Below, piece by piece: positions 20,876-27,134 of a DNA stretch of 39,364 bases (position 1 is the first letter of the stretch; every line of letters starts with the position of its first letter). The notes under the pieces were generated by a model that had not been told where the DNA came from, did not search any database, and worked only from the letters and a program-made list of their open reading frames with translations. A program made the position numbers and the translations under genes. The DNA is from Methanosaeta sp. PtaB.Bin039 (lineage in GTDB: Archaea; Halobacteriota; Methanosarcinia; Methanotrichales; Methanotrichaceae): NCBI GenBank assembly GCA_002067795.1, contig MVQI01000013.1, forward strand, positions 1-39,364, read 5' to 3'.

Positions 20876-22198
20876 CTATCGCGTCGATAGACGCTTGGAC
20901 GTCTCAAATTCGCAACAATTTTTTAAGCGCTCCATCATATAATTTTTTTCGCAGACCTTCTTATTGGGCTCGCCGTATTTGTATAGAGACATGGCCAAAC
21001 AACCACTCCCGCATATGGGAGTCAATTTGCAGCTGCCGCAATCGTCTATCGTTAAGGGATTACGACTCATGATTTTATAGAATAGCGAATTGCATTTGGG
21101 CATACCCGATTCGTCTATCGCTCCTACCGAAAAGCTCTCGTGAGGTGGTAGTATCGCACATTTGAATAATCTGCCTAACGGATCAACGATAAACCTCTGA
21201 CTGTGAAGCGCGCCGCAAACATTCAGGTTTGGAAGGCCAGTTGCATCATCGGTATTGAATCCTTCTTCTCGCGCTGTGTTATATAGATTATCGCATATGG
21301 CAATATTCTCTTTATCGGATTCGCCATCGCGATCTCGTGAAGGACATGATATGCATGCAGGCGAGGCGTCAAATACTGGTTTGATAGATATAATTGCTTT
21401 ATTTAAATCGTTTAATTTCAAAGTGTTCAAGAGAGATGGTATATGTAAATAGTTCTCCTTATTTACATTCACTCTTATTGTTATTTCGAGACCATGTCTC
21501 TTGGCGATGATCAAGCCTTTGATGATATCATCAAACGTACCCCTGCCGTCTTTGTAAAATCGTCGTCTATCATGTATCTCCCTTGGTCCGTCTAATGTGA
21601 CCAATACGGAGCCATGAAAGGCTGAGAGCTTATTTGCGATATCTTCGGTTATCAGCGAGCCATTAGTAATTGCATGTGCTGAGAACGGGATATGGATTTC
21701 CCTTGCCCACTGGGATAAATTCTCGAGTATTTTATATCCAATATCGAAATTAATTAAAGTTTCGCCACCATACAATTGTATGTTAAGGGCGCGGCAATTA
21801 TTTCTCATTGTAGTATCTTTAATAAATCTCATGACATTCTCTGCGGTCTTGAGATCCATATGCTGTGATGCAATGATCCCTTTGCCCTCAAAGCAATATT
21901 CACATGAAAAATTGCATGCATATGTTGTGATGATATGAAATGAGGCTTCCTGATTTATATATTTACGACTCTCATAATAGTAATGATATACTTCTTGCTC
22001 ATTATGATCGTCTTCTATCAAAATACCATTATCTTTAAACTTTTTGGCAATTTCAATTGGTATCTCCTCTAAGGCTTTCGACTCCAATAGATCTTTAATA
22101 TCTTGATCGACAATCATCAGTGATCGCTGAAGTGCATTAAATAAAAAATACTTGCTGCCATCTGTGGGGAGTAGTATGTTATAAAACGATGTCATCAT
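20876..22198 (-). CDS. Radical SAM/SPASM peptide maturase (second of two)
   Basis: Counting from the upstream ATG 22213, the order is as follows. An N-terminal domain of about 90 residues (SFYNILLPTDGSKYFLFNAL, GILIEDD) is of the sort that precedes the catalytic core in RiPP maturases. The radical SAM motif CNFSCEYC gives Cys100, Cys104 and Cys107, and YGGE follows at 148-151. A C-terminal SPASM domain has seven cysteines at about 333, 352, 392, 395, 401, 405 and 421 (CGSCKLTPICGSGC), enough for two auxiliary 4Fe-4S clusters. Such enzymes install thioether, C-C or related crosslinks on precursor peptides. ATG 22198 has GGGGGT upstream; ATG 22213 overlaps the preceding gene. It is AT-rich compared with the flanks, and is co-transcribed with the first maturase. 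Confidence 0.9.
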   Translation of the reverse strand: MMTSFYNILLPTDGSKYFLFNALQRSLMIVDQDIKDLLESKALEEIPIEIAKKFKDNGILIEDDHNEQEVYHYYYESRKYINQEASFHIITTYACNFSCEYCFEGKGIIASQHMDLKTAENVMRFIKDTTMRNNCRALNIQLYGGETLINFDIGYKILENLSQWAREIHIPFSAHAITNGSLITEDIANKLSAFHGSVLVTLDGPREIHDRRRFYKDGRGTFDDIIKGLIIAKRHGLEITIRVNVNKENYLHIPSLLNTLKLNDLNKAIISIKPVFDASPACISCPSRDRDGESDKENIAICDNLYNTAREEGFNTDDATGLPNLNVCGALHSQRFIVDPLGRLFKCAILPPHESFSVGAIDESGMPKCNSLFYKIMSRNPLTIDDCGSCKLTPICGSGCLAMSLYKYGEPNKKVCEKNYMMERLKNCCEFETSKRLSTR

Positions 22199-22203
22199 TA
22201 AAA

Positions 22204-23502
22204 TTACCCCCATTTATTTAGGTAATGATCTTTCAAATATGTCTTTATATTGTCCTGATATTGTTCTTTATTACAGATCGGCACGTTAATATCGCCAAAT
22301 TTATTATATGCGTGAAATGCACAACCGGCAAAGCACATTGGCGCAAATTCACAGGATCTACACTCGTCAAATTGGAGTGGATTTCTCAATGCCCATTTGC
22401 AGTAAGCCTCTTGGTTAACATCTTTCAGGGTTCCATCTTCTGCTATTGTACCTAATCTGTGTTCCGGTATTCCCACCGAGGAACAGCACTTATAGATGTC
22501 TCCATTTGGGGCTATCGTATATGTGTCATCAAATATTGCACCACAACCGATTCTGCTATTGGCAAGAGCTATTGTATTTGTGCTATATCCTTTTAAAATG
22601 GCCAGGCTGTAAAGCTCATGCATTCTTTCTTCAGATACCTCGGCGACCTGCTTGTCACAGTGTTTATTAAATACGGTGATACACGATACCTTTTGAATGC
22701 TTATCCTCGGTGCCTTGCCAAGCTTATCCTTAAGGTCGTCCAGTAACTCGCCAATATGCGAAAAGTTCTCCTTATCCACATCTATTCTCAAACGATAATC
22801 GATTTTGTGCTTTTCCAGATTGCGTATGACTTCTATCAATCGATCGTATGTTCCAGATCCGTTCTTATATGCCCTCTTCACATCATGTACGCTCTTTGGG
22901 CCTGCAAAAGTTATTTGGATGTCATTTACATGATAAATTTTAAACTTTTCCATTAAATTTTCGCTTAATAAAGTGCCATTCGTCGCCCCTGTAATCTTTA
23001 GCGACTTTTTTTCAGTATCACAGTATTTTTTTAGCTCTTTGAAGATCGTCAGCAGAATGTCTGGTTCTAAGAGGGGTTCTCCTCCATAGAGCGATATCGT
23101 AATTCCGGTTTTTTTGGCAGCCATTCTCTTAATATATTTTATAACTTTTAAAACTGTGCTTTCATCCATCGTGTCAGTCAGAATTGTTCCTGATTGCTGA
23201 TAGCAATAGGTGCAATTAAGATTACATCGATGCGTGGGTATTAAAATGAATGACGCAAGGCTGCCACTGTATTTCAATCTATTTATATTTAATTGAAATA
23301 TGGACGTCTCATCGATGCTTGTGACGAATCCGTTTTGCATCAGCATGGAGAGATACTCTTCGTTAACATCTTCGAACGAGTTGTTCCTCATACAGTTTTC
23401 TAATTCATCGTCTATTCTAATTATTGCATCGTTCATTGTATTATATACAAGATATCTATTTGGGCCAGAATTATAATAAATATTAAATCTAGACGATCTC
23501 AT
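22204..23502 (-). CDS. Radical SAM/SPASM peptide maturase (first of two)
   Basis: A 432-aa enzyme. The N-terminal domain (GPNRYLVYNTMNDAIIRIDDE, MLMQNGFVTSIDE) resembles the substrate-binding region of peptide-modifying radical SAM enzymes. The cluster motif is CNLNCTYC (Cys93, Cys97, Cys100), then SLYGGEP (137-143). The SPASM domain cysteines are at 320, 339, 381, 384, 390, 394 and 410 (CRSCEFAPMCFAGC). It is clearly homologous to, but only distantly similar to, the next gene, so the two probably do different steps or act on different cores. It lies directly downstream of the precursor array on the same strand; its ATG overlaps a short reading frame that ends at 23489. Confidence 0.92.
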   Translation of the reverse strand: MRSSRFNIYYNSGPNRYLVYNTMNDAIIRIDDELENCMRNNSFEDVNEEYLSMLMQNGFVTSIDETSIFQLNINRLKYSGSLASFILIPTHRCNLNCTYCYQQSGTILTDTMDESTVLKVIKYIKRMAAKKTGITISLYGGEPLLEPDILLTIFKELKKYCDTEKKSLKITGATNGTLLSENLMEKFKIYHVNDIQITFAGPKSVHDVKRAYKNGSGTYDRLIEVIRNLEKHKIDYRLRIDVDKENFSHIGELLDDLKDKLGKAPRISIQKVSCITVFNKHCDKQVAEVSEERMHELYSLAILKGYSTNTIALANSRIGCGAIFDDTYTIAPNGDIYKCCSSVGIPEHRLGTIAEDGTLKDVNQEAYCKWALRNPLQFDECRSCEFAPMCFAGCAFHAYNKFGDINVPICNKEQYQDNIKTYLKDHYLNKWG

Positions 23503-23659
23503 ATACTCCCCCGTACATCTTCAGGCTCCTCGCCATCTTCTTCTGGTATGCCAGATAACAGATATTATTCATGATGCAATTCCTGCCATATAGGTTAACT
23601 CTCTCATCCAGATTGTTGATTTCGTGGAACCAAGCACTCGATCCCGCATCATGAGATGT
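23489..23659 (-). pseudogene. Short open frame overlapping the maturase start; 5'-truncated remnant or 27-aa peptide
   Basis: From the codon after a TGA (23662-23660) to the TAG at 23491-23489 there are 56 sense codons with natural-looking composition (WFHEINNLDERVNLYGRN, then CIMNNICYLAYQKKMARSL). No ATG, GTG or TTG exists before the ATG at 23572, which would give a 27-aa peptide ending inside the maturase gene (overlap 14 bases). The coding-like part begins well upstream of that ATG, so I favour the 3' remnant of a longer gene, perhaps retained because its translation couples to the maturase. The family is not recognised. Confidence 0.4.
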
Positions 23660-23716
23660 TCAGGTTAGCCACACGAGACCGCGAGGAGCCAGTGTATCTC
23701 TTCAGTTCAGCAGTCT

Positions 23717-23848
23717 CTATTTCATATCTATGCTGCCCTTTTCCGAGTCCTGCGCACTTACAATCAGGACAATCGCCCCTTGTGGACACACCACCCCCTC
23801 TCTGGATCCATTTCCTCGATCACTGCATCTTATGAGTTCTGCAAACAT
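23717..23848 (-). pseudogene. RiPP precursor copy D, frameshifted
   Basis: ATG 23848 opens MFAELIRCSD, the same leader as the intact copies. After about 18 codons the frame departs from the family core and ends as a 43-aa protein without the Trp-Cys motif. The lost core is still visible in another frame: DCPDCKC, from DNA almost identical to copy A (GATTGTCCTGATTGTAAGTG), continuing AGLGKG. Aligned with copy A, this copy carries two single-base insertions, one just before the Trp-Cys codons and one between them and DCPDC. A longer open frame upstream to 23935 is probably meaningless. Leader plus lost core identifies it as a decayed precursor. Confidence 0.6.
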
Positions 23849-23864
23849 GCTTTTCATCTCATCG

Positions 23865-23981
23865 TCATGGTGAAGGTCCCTTATCACATGAAACATGATC
23901 AGGTGTACTTCCCCACGGCCAACACCAGCCATCAACGGATTCAGTTGAATCGTCGCTTCCTTTTACCAGTTCCGCAAACCT
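23865..23981 (-). pseudogene. RiPP precursor copy C, start codon changed to AGG
   Basis: The frame reads RFAELVKGSDDSTESVDG followed by WCWPWGSTPDHVSC and ends at TGA 23865. It is intact over 38 codons and very like copy B, but the initiating ATG is AGG (compare GGTGGGACGATG in B with GGTGGGACTAGG here). No ATG, GTG or TTG lies between the upstream in-frame stop and this point. It is in the same frame as copy B across B's TAA, six codons away. It is probably silent unless there is read-through or a non-standard start. The core is the shortest and has only two cysteines. Confidence 0.65.
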
Positions 23982-23996
23982 AGTCCCACCCCATTC

Positions 23997-24131
23997 TTAC
24001 GGGGCTGTCCCTTCTGCACAGCTCTTATCGGGCCCATCACCCATTGGAAAGCACCAGTTCCTCCATGGCCAACACCAACTTCCAACGGATTCGGTTGACT
24101 CGTCGCTTCCTTTTACCAGTTCCGCAAACAT
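23997..24131 (-). CDS. RiPP precursor peptide B (44 aa, Trp/Cys-rich)
   Basis: ATG 24131 is preceded by GAGGTGGGA. The leader is MFAELVKGSDESTESVG, matching copy A at 8 of the first 10 residues. The core begins SWCWPWRNWCFPMGD and ends CAEGTAP, with three cysteines and four tryptophans. It contains the Trp-Cys motif twice, WCWPW and WCFPM: the first matches copy C, the second copy A, so this copy looks like a fusion of two core types. An overlapping frame from ATG 24150 would give an unrelated 36-aa basic peptide and is less credible. The substrate of the adjacent SPASM maturases is inferred from position, size and family structure. Confidence 0.75.
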   Translation of the reverse strand: MFAELVKGSDESTESVGSWCWPWRNWCFPMGDGPDKSCAEGTAP

Positions 24132-24146
24132 CGTCCCACCTCATTC

Positions 24147-24246
24147 TCATGGAGCCCTGCTAGATCAACTTCATACGTCATCGGTAGAATTGCCCCACAG
24201 CCAACGCCAGAGTCTAGCGGAATCTGTCTTACATTGTCTCTTCCTT
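24147..24246 (-). pseudogene. Decayed precursor copy between A and B
   Basis: DNA aligned with copy C: GATTCCGCTAGACTCTGGCG corresponds to GAATCCGTTGATGGCTGGTG, and then TGGCGTTGGCTGTGGGGC matches TGGTGTTGGCCGTGGGGA (WRWLWG for WCWPWG). The start and leader are missing. Both cysteine positions and the proline are substituted, and an in-frame TGA interrupts the core. The remnant overlaps the end of copy A, as if a deletion joined A's stop region to this unit's leader. Confidence 0.6.
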
Positions 24247-24358
24247 ACGGGGCCTTTCCGTCTATGCACTTACAATCAGGACAATCGCCCATTGGAAGAC
24301 ACCATCCTCTAACGGGATCAGTCCCATCGTCGCTGCCTTTTATCAGTTCAGCAAACAC
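24245..24358 (-). CDS. RiPP precursor peptide A (37 aa, four cysteines)
   Basis: GTG 24358 follows AGGTGGTGA at the correct spacing. The leader is MFAELIKGSDDGTDPV, and the core GWCLPMGDCPDCKC ends in IDGKAP. Four cysteines in 12 residues plus one Trp make a compact core suitable for SPASM-type thioether formation. It is the first gene after the TATA box at about 24398-24404, with a predicted leader of only about 17 bases. An in-frame TAA seven codons upstream of the GTG (24381-24379) blocks any longer version. It was too short for normal gene calling. No similar peptide family comes to mind; assignment rests on the shared leader, the repeated copies and the adjoining maturases. Confidence 0.78.
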   Translation of the reverse strand: MFAELIKGSDDGTDPVRGWCLPMGDCPDCKCIDGKAP

Positions 24359-24385
24359 ATTTTCACCACCTTTTGCAAGTTAGTA

Positions 24386-24404
24386 ATACCTTTAAGGTAT
24401 AAAT
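24386..24404 (-). promoter_or_regulatory. Promoter of the precursor operon with overlapping 15-bp palindrome
   Basis: On the minus strand, TTATTTATACC gives a TATA box at about 24398-24404, with a transcription start expected near 24375. Immediately adjoining is the perfect palindrome ATACCTTTAAGGTAT (24386-24400), seven-base arms around one base. A repressor bound there would block TBP/TFB. No regulator gene is in the cluster; the nearest is the XRE gene at 26548. Confidence 0.6.
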
Positions 24405-24562
24405 AATTAACTGTTATGTCCTAAATATTACGATGGTATGCATGTGACCACAATTTTATAGAAAATACGACTCGCTCTATCTAAGCTAATTATAAAAACA
24501 CCTGAAGTCGCATCTACTCATATCTATAATAATCATATCTCTAATTACATTAGATACGCCTA

Positions 24563-26296
24563 TTACTCTCTTCTCTTCGGACCGAATTCTCCCGGGCTTG
24601 GGGCTAGATGCGCTGTCGCCGTTTGACTGGGTTGGACTCGCAGGTCGTTTAGGTCAAAAATACCTCCTTTAATTCCCTGCGGCAGTTCATGGGTTGCGAT
24701 TATTATTGTCCTGTCTTTACTCAGATTCGATAATGCAGCATAAATCGACTTCTTTGATTTCTCATCTATCGATGATGTAACTTCATCCAGGAGCATAATT
24801 CTCGATTTTCTCAAAGCAGCTCTTGCCAGGGCTATTTTCTGTCGTTCTCCGCCAGACAGCTTCATCCCGTTCTCACCTACCTGTGTATGATATCCTTGAG
24901 GCAATTTGATGATAAATTCATGTGCATTCGCTAATCTAGCTGCTTCGATTACTTCTTCTTCCATAGCATTAAGATCTCCAATCGAAATATTCTCATAAAT
25001 TGTTGCATCGATCAGTTGAACATTTTGCAATAGAATTGATATATTCTTCCGAAGCGATTTTATATTAACCTCCGATATATCCTTCCCATCTATCTCTATC
25101 CTACCAGAATGTGGTTTATATATAGAGGATATCAAATGAAGAAGTGTAGACTTTCCGCTTCCATTATCTCCTATTAAAAAGTTCAAACCACGGTCAAACG
25201 TTACATTGAAATTATCAAAAATCTGTTCATTGTTGTATGAATACGCAAGATCCTTGACAACTATCTTTCCTTGCGTCACAACGAGTCCTTCTCGATTATG
25301 GATTTCGTTTTCCAAATCCAGATCAACGATCTCCCTCAGCCTTTCAAAGGCTGCCTCGCTTCTTTTTATATTTGGCCATAAATTCGATAAATCCCTTATT
25401 GGGCCGAAGAACTGGGTAACATATGTCGAAAAAGCAACCAGAGTGCCTATTGTAATGGTCCCTTCTAGTGTCATGCGCCCGCCAACCCAGAGGAGCAATA
25501 TTATGGGTACGAAAAAGTTCAGGCTGGATATGGATATGTATGACGCAATGGTTTTGGACATATCTATTGATGCATCGCGATACAGCGATCCCACCGATGC
25601 GAATCGTCCTTTTTGATAATCCTCCAGGCAGAATACTTTCACCAATGGCATTATTGATAGGCTCTCTGTCAGGAATGATGTTATGTTTCCCGTCGCCTGA
25701 AGCACTCTCTTCTGCTTGTCCCTCAATAAATTTCCATATATCCATGAGATGACGCTGTAAAATATGGTGGGCATTATGCAAATTAATGCAAGATCCCATT
25801 TTAATGTCAGCATGATTACTAACGGCAGGATCAGTCCCATTATCCCTGATATTAACCTGACTACATATGTCGAAATCAATTCCTGAGAAAGAACCACATC
25901 ATTCATTATCCTGCTTACAATGTCTCCACTCTTTATTTTATAAATTGCAGCCAATCTCTTTAGATTTATCTCTTTAAATAGATCTGACCTAATATCATCC
26001 GATATGGTAGCGCTTAACTTCCCGGATATGTACTGGGATAAGTAGGTCGCTACTGCGGATATCGCAAAGACAATAACGAGAACTGCCAGCCAATAATTAA
26101 GTATGTTTATTCCGACATTTTTATCGATATCTCCCGATGAAGAAAAGACATTATCAATTAGCCTTTTCAGTACTAATGGATTTATCAACGAGAATATCAT
26201 GGACGCTGCATTGATAAAGATTAATAAAATTAAATATCGTTGATATCGGCCGCTTACGTTCAGCGTTTTCTGATACTCTCTTATTCGCTTAATCAT
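24563..26296 (-). CDS. ABC exporter (fused TMD-NBD), probably exports the modified peptide
   Basis: A half-size transporter with an N-terminal six-helix membrane domain (about 20-310) and a C-terminal ATPase. Walker A is GDNGSGKS (376-383), the Q-loop follows as ILLQNVQ, the signature is LSGGERQ (480-486), Walker B is RIMLLDEVTSSID (499-511), and the H-loop is ATHE (His536). There is no N-terminal C39 peptidase domain, so leader removal must be done elsewhere or not at all. The last 25 residues (QPSQTATAHLAPSPGEFGPKRRE) are GC-rich and unlike the rest, suggesting a recombined 3' end. It lies 204 bases upstream of the precursor array on the same strand, with its own TATA box. Confidence 0.92.
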   Translation of the reverse strand: MIKRIREYQKTLNVSGRYQRYLILLIFINAASMIFSLINPLVLKRLIDNVFSSSGDIDKNVGINILNYWLAVLVIVFAISAVATYLSQYISGKLSATISDDIRSDLFKEINLKRLAAIYKIKSGDIVSRIMNDVVLSQELISTYVVRLISGIMGLILPLVIMLTLKWDLALICIMPTIFYSVISWIYGNLLRDKQKRVLQATGNITSFLTESLSIMPLVKVFCLEDYQKGRFASVGSLYRDASIDMSKTIASYISISSLNFFVPIILLLWVGGRMTLEGTITIGTLVAFSTYVTQFFGPIRDLSNLWPNIKRSEAAFERLREIVDLDLENEIHNREGLVVTQGKIVVKDLAYSYNNEQIFDNFNVTFDRGLNFLIGDNGSGKSTLLHLISSIYKPHSGRIEIDGKDISEVNIKSLRKNISILLQNVQLIDATIYENISIGDLNAMEEEVIEAARLANAHEFIIKLPQGYHTQVGENGMKLSGGERQKIALARAALRKSRIMLLDEVTSSIDEKSKKSIYAALSNLSKDRTIIIATHELPQGIKGGIFDLNDLRVQPSQTATAHLAPSPGEFGPKRRE

Positions 26297-26363
26297 GTAA
26301 GGACATCAGACAGTATCTTCAATTTAGCAGTTATTTAATCTTTTCTCTTAATTATTCGCTTTT

Positions 26364-26372
26364 AAATTTATA
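26364..26372 (-). promoter_or_regulatory. TATA box of the ABC exporter gene
   Basis: AGTATAAATTT on the minus strand predicts a start near 26343 and a leader of about 47 bases. No clear ribosome-binding site precedes ATG 26296. The rest of 26297-26547 holds no gene I can support. Confidence 0.5.
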
Positions 26373-26521: not shown

Positions 26522-26549
26522 CAAAAAATTGAGATCCCGGTTAGATCTC
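26522..26549 (-). terminator. Hairpin plus oligo-T terminator overlapping the XRE stop codon
   Basis: On the minus strand GAGATC pairs with GATCTC around a seven-base loop, followed by AA and TTTTTT. The TGA stop of the XRE gene lies at the edge of the stem (26550-26548). Confidence 0.6.
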
Positions 26550-26754
26550 ACCCAAGTTCATCCTCCTCGAAAATAAAGATCTCATCGATTCCGGCCTGGA
26601 GAGCCCTGGCTATCTTGCAGGCCAGCTTGAGCGACGGATTGTACTTTCCTTTTTCAAGGAAGAGAATTGTCTCCCGGCGGACGCCCACCAGTCGGGCAAG
26701 CTCCTCCTGGGTTAGGTCGTGCCTTGCCCGCAGCTCCTTGATGCGCGTCTTCAT
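26548..26754 (-). CDS. XRE-family helix-turn-helix regulator
   Basis: A 68-aa protein that is essentially one Cro/C1-type domain: [61 protein letters not shown]. This compact type usually accompanies a membrane protein gene in archaea and bacteria. Here its ATG overlaps the stop of the membrane-protein gene (ATGA), showing translational coupling. Autoregulation is likely by analogy. It is GC-rich, unlike the ABC gene next door, so it probably belongs to the flanking chromosome and not to the peptide locus. Confidence 0.92.
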
Positions 26755-27134
26755 GCTATGCCCACATCTCCTCTTCTATTGAAGTAGGCCAGGAAGAGCA
26801 GGGCGCTGACCGACATGACCCATGCTGCAGCCTCCAGAGCCGGACCTGTGGAGAGGTCCAGAAGTCCTAGGTAGCCTCCCCCAAGCAGAATGGACACGAA
26901 GACTATGCTCACCAGCCAGGAATAGGCCATGGCGAAAGCCCAGATCTTCCATCCCCTCTCGTCGGTCTCAGGCTGATCGCCGGATCTCCAGCGAATCAGA
27001 CCGGCAACGGCAATGGCTGTGACGCCTGCTAAAACCATGAAGGCGGCGTTATATCCAGCCCATATAAGTGCAAGCCCGGCCAGCCCCAGAGCCGCTCCAA
27101 TAGATATTCTGATCAAGAAATACTTCGTGGACAT
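26751..27134 (-). CDS. Small integral membrane protein (DUF2178-like)
   Basis: A 127-aa protein with four hydrophobic segments: about 8-25, 28-46, 63-85 and 100-118. A polar loop with [21 protein letters not shown] separates the second and third; a DER-containing loop at this place is typical of DUF2178 proteins paired with XRE regulators. Function unknown. ATG 27134 follows GTGAG. It is the first gene of a two-gene unit with the XRE regulator. Confidence 0.78.

Follow-up and report, generated by a model that had tools for sequence, protein, structure and literature searches.

Among described systems, Clo7bot loci (for example, that of Paraclostridium bifermentans plasmid NZ_CP079738, L072) are closest in architecture to the cluster reported here. 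They, too, encode on a single strand a tandem array of short Cys-rich peptides sharing a leader, an ABC transporter, and a SPASM maturase whose N-terminus is similar. They differ in encoding one maturase rather than two, in a maturase identity of ~28%, and in a leader (MKFIKKPARKFEEG) that is unrelated to the FAEL[IV]KGSD found here. CefA/CefB and TIGR04463 represent the maturase families that score best for the two maturases of the present cluster, RS1 and RS2, yet under cut-off; the annotated CefA examined here is a 679-aa protein rather than a tandem peptide of ~40 aa, and its Cys at every fifth residue is absent from precursor copies A, B, and C. PapA-type substrates (ranthipeptide, PapB) feature a regular CX3D spacing that the precursor cores lack. 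CteB, a SCIFF maturase (PDB 5wgg, 5why), resembles RS1 and RS2 in its N-terminal domain, which is predicted to be RRE-like in both, and in the two-auxiliary-cluster SPASM Cys set, but is only about 20% identical in sequence. Thuricin CD, a bacterial sactibiotic, pairs two precursors (TrnA/TrnB) with two radical SAM enzymes (TrnC/TrnD) able to act as one complex (PMC12093266); the two intact precursors and two radical SAM enzymes described here resemble it in organisation.

For archaea, a 2025 genome-mining survey reports that radical-SAM RiPP clusters of ranthipeptide and sactipeptide type are widespread, and that lanthipeptides were the only archaeal RiPPs confirmed experimentally at that date (PMC12144867). 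A first-pass annotation of this DNA had called the system a candidate undescribed one. In light of the survey, this does not hold for radical-SAM RiPP clusters in archaea generally; it does hold for the maturase clade and the precursor. Neither this precursor family nor the seven-maturase clusters discussed below turned up in our searches of the open-licence literature.

Organisation of the locus and its precursor copies

The cluster occupies positions 20876-26296 of the window, i.e., the whole 39,364-nucleotide stretch of Methanosaeta sp. PtaB.Bin039 that was analysed. Read 5' to 3' on the minus strand, it comprises an ABC exporter, a short intergenic stretch containing a TATA-like box, five related short sequences, RS1, and RS2, and every part lies where the first-pass annotation had placed it.

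26361..26372, minus strand: TATA-like box TATAAATTTAAA upstream of the exporter (scan, consensus match only)
24563..26296, minus strand: ABC exporter, 577 aa, with PF00664 (ABC_membrane), PF00005 (ABC_tran), and ATPase motifs
24398..24406, minus strand: TATA-like box TTATTTATA upstream of copy A (scan, consensus match only)
24245..24358, minus strand: precursor copy A, 37 aa, intact, GTG start, MFAELIKGSDDGTDPVRGWCLPMGDCPDCKCIDGKAP
24142..24244 (about), minus strand: precursor copy D, degraded C-like remnant with no usable leader (local alignment to C)
23997..24131, minus strand: precursor copy B, 44 aa, intact, core motifs WCWPW and WCFPMGD
23865..23981 (about), minus strand: precursor copy C, 38-codon open frame whose start codon reads AGG
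23717..23848, minus strand: precursor copy E, leader kept, frameshift ahead of the core
22204..23502, minus strand: RS1, radical SAM/SPASM maturase, 432 aa, predicted RRE-like N-terminal domain
20876..22198, minus strand: RS2, radical SAM/SPASM maturase, 440 aa, predicted RRE-like N-terminal domain

The host genes inside the window (PCNA, archaeal primase large subunit, Cdc6, ATP-dependent DNA ligase, and GatB/GatE-family proteins) are archaeal, and they surround the cluster, which bears out its assignment to an archaeal system. A single promoter had been placed between the exporter and the tiny genes. A TATA-like box does precede copy A, but a second lies before the exporter; because such boxes precede both, the cluster probably has two promoters, one of them the exporter's own. 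The exporter retains intact Walker A, LSGGE, Walker B, and H-loop motifs. Its Pfam domains do not include a C39 peptidase, and neither a leader peptidase nor an immunity gene was recognised within the cluster.

Copies A and B are the two intact tiny genes with common leader and core that had been claimed, and both have a ribosome site ahead of the start codon (GGTGGTGA for A, GAGGTGG for the ATG of B). The three copies described as damaged are indeed so in this assembly, in which the breaks in C and E may be real or reflect misassembly: C, which follows in frame after the TAA of copy B, lacks a standard start codon, D is degraded (alignment score to C of 29, against a shuffle maximum of 16), and E is frameshifted. 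The readable copies A, B, and C have the FAEL[IV]KGSD leader and a WC-P core in common. B carries WCWPW together with WCFPMGD, A only the WC[LF]PMGD type, and C only WCWPW.

DNA identity between copies is 65-97% over 29-93 nt. This similarity is not chance, because the D1 repeat pair is 86% identical over 93 nt, the A/E core matches at 97% over 29 nt, and FAEL[IVL][KR] is confined to four precursor copies across the six frames of the window. Differences at codon positions 1, 2, and 3 number 1, 1, and 5 for B/C, 5, 1, and 7 for the A/B leader, and 2, 0, and 4 for the A/B core. Since they cluster at third positions, with dN < dS in all copy comparisons (on small numbers), the pattern is consistent with selection acting on the peptide. 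As in RiPP clusters, a short gene with conserved leader and variable core adjoins a maturase. That copies have multiplied and partly broken suggests a core that diversifies and turns over fast.

The first-pass annotation did not recognise the precursor family, and we likewise found nothing corresponding to it in NCBIfam, in Pfam, or in the genomes searched (50 of the family, 394 of the phylum); the family is known from one genome so far. In those same genomes, the precursor profile returned, outside the window, scattered weak matches that we take collectively. Many fall within long frames, and none was traced to a maturase.

Maturases and their family placement

Both maturases contain CxxxCxxC, GGE, and CX2CX5CX3C with three further SPASM Cys, such that the full Cys sets attributed to them earlier (CxxxCxxC plus seven SPASM Cys) are present in each, and by motif they belong to the broad class of SPASM radical SAM peptide maturases. 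The radical SAM/SPASM Cys columns are invariant in family alignments. Pfam assigns PF04055 to RS1 and RS2, and PF13186 to RS1 only. RS2 probably starts at ATG 22198, not at 22213 of the longest ORF, because alignment with relatives favours this position and it yields the family N-terminus MxxSxYNI.

AlphaFold2 models of RS1 and RS2 (mean pLDDT 87.8 and 87.7) both open, at high confidence, with three strands and three helices (beta3-alpha3), as in PqqD-like recognition domains. The RS1 model aligns along its length with the RRE-bearing CteB, its best match in the PDB (5why, TM 0.73), followed by TigE and anaerobic sulfatase-maturating enzymes. Similarly, the family sequence profile ranked CteB first among solved structures.

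Judged by sequence scores and phylogeny, RS1 and RS2 fall outside every named maturase family tested. The best NCBIfam match for RS1 and RS2, at 304 and 263 bits, is CefB (NF038107), about half the curated cut-off of 600 bits, a threshold passed in none of 295 phylum genomes. Scores were likewise below the curated cut-offs for the Clo7bot maturase (TIGR04334; 164 and 162 vs 600 bits), TIGR04463 (180 and 183 vs 525), the geopeptide maturase (TIGR04280; 173 and 168 vs 400), PapB (NF047865; 130 and 153 vs 340), and SCIFF (TIGR03974; 94 and 106 vs 425). In a maximum-likelihood tree of 27 sequences, in which bacteria are sampled by three plasmid sequences and named families by Clo7bot and TIGR04463, RS1, RS2, a paralog from contig C57 of the same genome, and 14 enzymes of two methanogens (G036 and G338) form one clade (100/100). 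This fully supported clade stands apart from Clo7bot, from TIGR04463, which falls in a different clade, and from Nif11-type and other archaeal enzymes. Bacterial relatives were seen via plasmids only, none exceeding ~28% identity over most of the query. Genome-contig scans with RS1, and with RS1 plus the paralog, gave zero confirmed relatives, and a search of viral contigs returned nothing.

Related maturase loci in other archaea

We compared ten related archaeal maturase loci (G036, G338, G010, G052, G060, G364, G382, G138, G027, and G308). The first-pass annotation had proposed that its peptide beside related maturases would count as support, and had named maturases consistently without one as evidence to the contrary. 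A short Cys-rich candidate peptide adjoins the maturase in eight of the ten loci and is missing in G027 and G308; the precursor family of the window itself occurs in none. The pattern of such a maturase beside a short peptide holds, with the peptide itself specific to one genome so far. The least certain candidate is that of G010, a Cys-rich ORF of 53 aa that follows a GAGGTGATC site and overlaps the maturase end. In four loci of one genus (G052, G060, G364, and G382), the peptide core reads GGC[VM]GCDGVGGCGFCEC, and the G060 maturase is split.

At L015 8262-8624, L035 7485-7811, L036 6247-6645, and L018 9393-9734, in four genomes that belong to a different family of the class, the peptide with core GGC[VM]GCDGVGGCGFCEC precedes a Clo7bot-like maturase. 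The leader of the L015 peptide weakly matches the NHLP leader family, at 20 bits against a cut-off of 51. In G138 (L034 8312-12855, minus strand), a related maturase is followed downstream by Nif11-like leader peptides, four or more in number, in which AVTGGS precedes short Cys/His/Trp cores (for example, VPDCITVCHNYW).

The distant methanogens G036 (L014, G036:C86, 3271-15536) and G338 (L032, G338:C1, 6464-18803) have a seven-maturase cluster in common. It consists of a precursor, an 84-86-aa protein, seven consecutive SPASM radical SAM genes, a 318-322-aa protein, and a B12-binding radical SAM enzyme. The precursor, directly before the maturases, has the pattern SLLGCCIIHFWCWE.G.G.CC and the core HFWCWE, and in the tree the seven maturases of one genome pair one-to-one, in gene order, with those of the other. 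This maturase set was found in no other genome among 394 of the phylum and 199 of the order of G338. The clusters resemble that of the window in encoding maturases of the RS1/RS2 clade and a short precursor with a Trp/Cys core. Unlike it, they combine seven maturases with one precursor of unrelated sequence, add the 84-86-aa protein and the B12-binding enzyme, and feature no ABC exporter in the stretch read. We tentatively raise the idea, which we regard as rather doubtful, that RS1 and RS2 belong to a new archaeal branch of the peptide-modifying radical SAM enzymes, a family known chiefly from bacteria. Such a branch would have at one end the present exporter cluster with its two enzymes and at the other a conserved assembly line of seven enzymes working on one peptide, and it would make Trp/Cys crosslinks of an undescribed type.

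Probable acquisition, alternative readings and a proposed pathway

RS1, RS2, and the exporter have a GC content of 38-40%, relative to ~56-64% in the flanking stretches and genes, and the cluster was probably acquired horizontally. A second AT-rich island (33-34% GC) lies on contig C57 of the same genome (L013, G000:C57, 8101-15177). Its maturase is 50% identical to RS1 and its exporter 49% identical to the window exporter, with MacB-type genes and a transposase in between. No precursor is visible in this island; the contig stops ~240 bases upstream of the exporter in a repeat common to other contigs, so the adjoining piece cannot be placed. Because the island holds siblings of both genes, the exporter is tied to the maturase, and the comparison suggests an imported, duplicated cassette. 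The GC-rich repeat at the contig end (L013 15345-15405; 40-60 bases, GGCGGCGCCTCGCATGCCCCGCAGCTCTGCTGCGGGGTGCGCC) is present on at least ten contigs, at some of them also at the end.

Overall, we consider it likely that the locus is a probably imported RiPP cluster that makes exported, crosslinked peptides and belongs to no named family. The earlier proposal that it makes and exports a small family of crosslinked peptides is thereby supported, as a SPASM-RiPP cluster fits everything tested; competition or signalling, the roles which that proposal had suggested, may be what the peptides serve. In its favour we count the conserved leader and core, third-position bias, ribosome sites, complete motifs, beta3-alpha3 models, CteB match, C57 sibling pair, AT-rich genes, the eight of ten loci that bear a peptide, and the Clo7bot-like architecture. 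Against it stand the damage to three of the five copies, the missing precursor by the C57 siblings, a precursor family known from one genome, the lack of a leader peptidase in the cluster, and an exporter that probably has its own promoter.

Some of these points would also suit a RiPP cluster in decay and no longer functional, its maturases and exporter still open while the precursor array is being lost: C is without a standard start codon, D and E are degraded and frameshifted, and a transposase separates the parts of a related island that has no visible precursor. With A, B, both maturases, and the exporter intact in all key motifs, and with substitutions between copies that still favour third positions, we judge this unlikely; given three broken copies out of five, a partial decay of the array is possible. 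SPASM maturases also work in cofactor pathways. Instead of an exported signal or antimicrobial, the peptides could give rise to an internal product, either a metal-binding peptide or a redox cofactor of the kind made in the PQQ and mycofactocin pathways. The Cys-rich cores agree with such a product, as does the finding that neither an immunity gene nor a leader peptidase was recognised in the cluster. A dedicated exporter adjoins the precursors, however, an exporter sibling lies near the maturase sibling, and a set of diversified precursor copies is what one would expect of secreted peptides rather than of cofactors; we therefore hold an internal product to be somewhat less likely still. It is very improbable that the short ORFs are not genes and that the true substrate of the maturases, whether peptide or protein, is encoded elsewhere. 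The ORFs are indeed short, with homologues found nowhere else, but they combine third-position bias, a common leader, ribosome sites, and Cys/Trp cores with a place between exporter and maturases.

For the exported RiPP, we infer crosslink chemistry, leader cleavage, product, and function as follows. The FAEL[IV]KGSD leader would dock on the N-terminal domains of RS1 and RS2, which, together or on separate motifs (WCWPW and WC[LF]PMGD), would abstract a core hydrogen and install crosslinks at Cys and/or Trp. As the exporter has no C39 domain, an unlinked protease may cut off the leader, and the ABC protein would then export the products, few in number and of mixed type. One core motif might be assigned to each enzyme, but two radical SAM enzymes can also work as a single complex, as those of thuricin CD do (PMC12093266). 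With two core motifs on one leader, and with seven-enzyme sister clusters, the assignment of enzyme to motif is directly testable. With its two peptides, two enzymes, and single exporter, the cluster is compact enough to be reconstituted, and it could reveal whether radical-crosslinked peptides are made and secreted by archaea and which role this unassigned SPASM clade plays.

Finally, two minor features adjoin these genes. Directly upstream of the exporter (26548-27134, minus strand), two proteins are encoded at ordinary GC, one a small HTH_3 regulator and the other lacking a Pfam family; a regulatory role is possible. At 23500-23583 on the minus strand, a 27-codon ORF (MNNICYLAYQKKMARSLKMYGGVYEIV) overlaps the RS1 start codon in a different frame; it could be what is left of a gene, or a leader for translational coupling.
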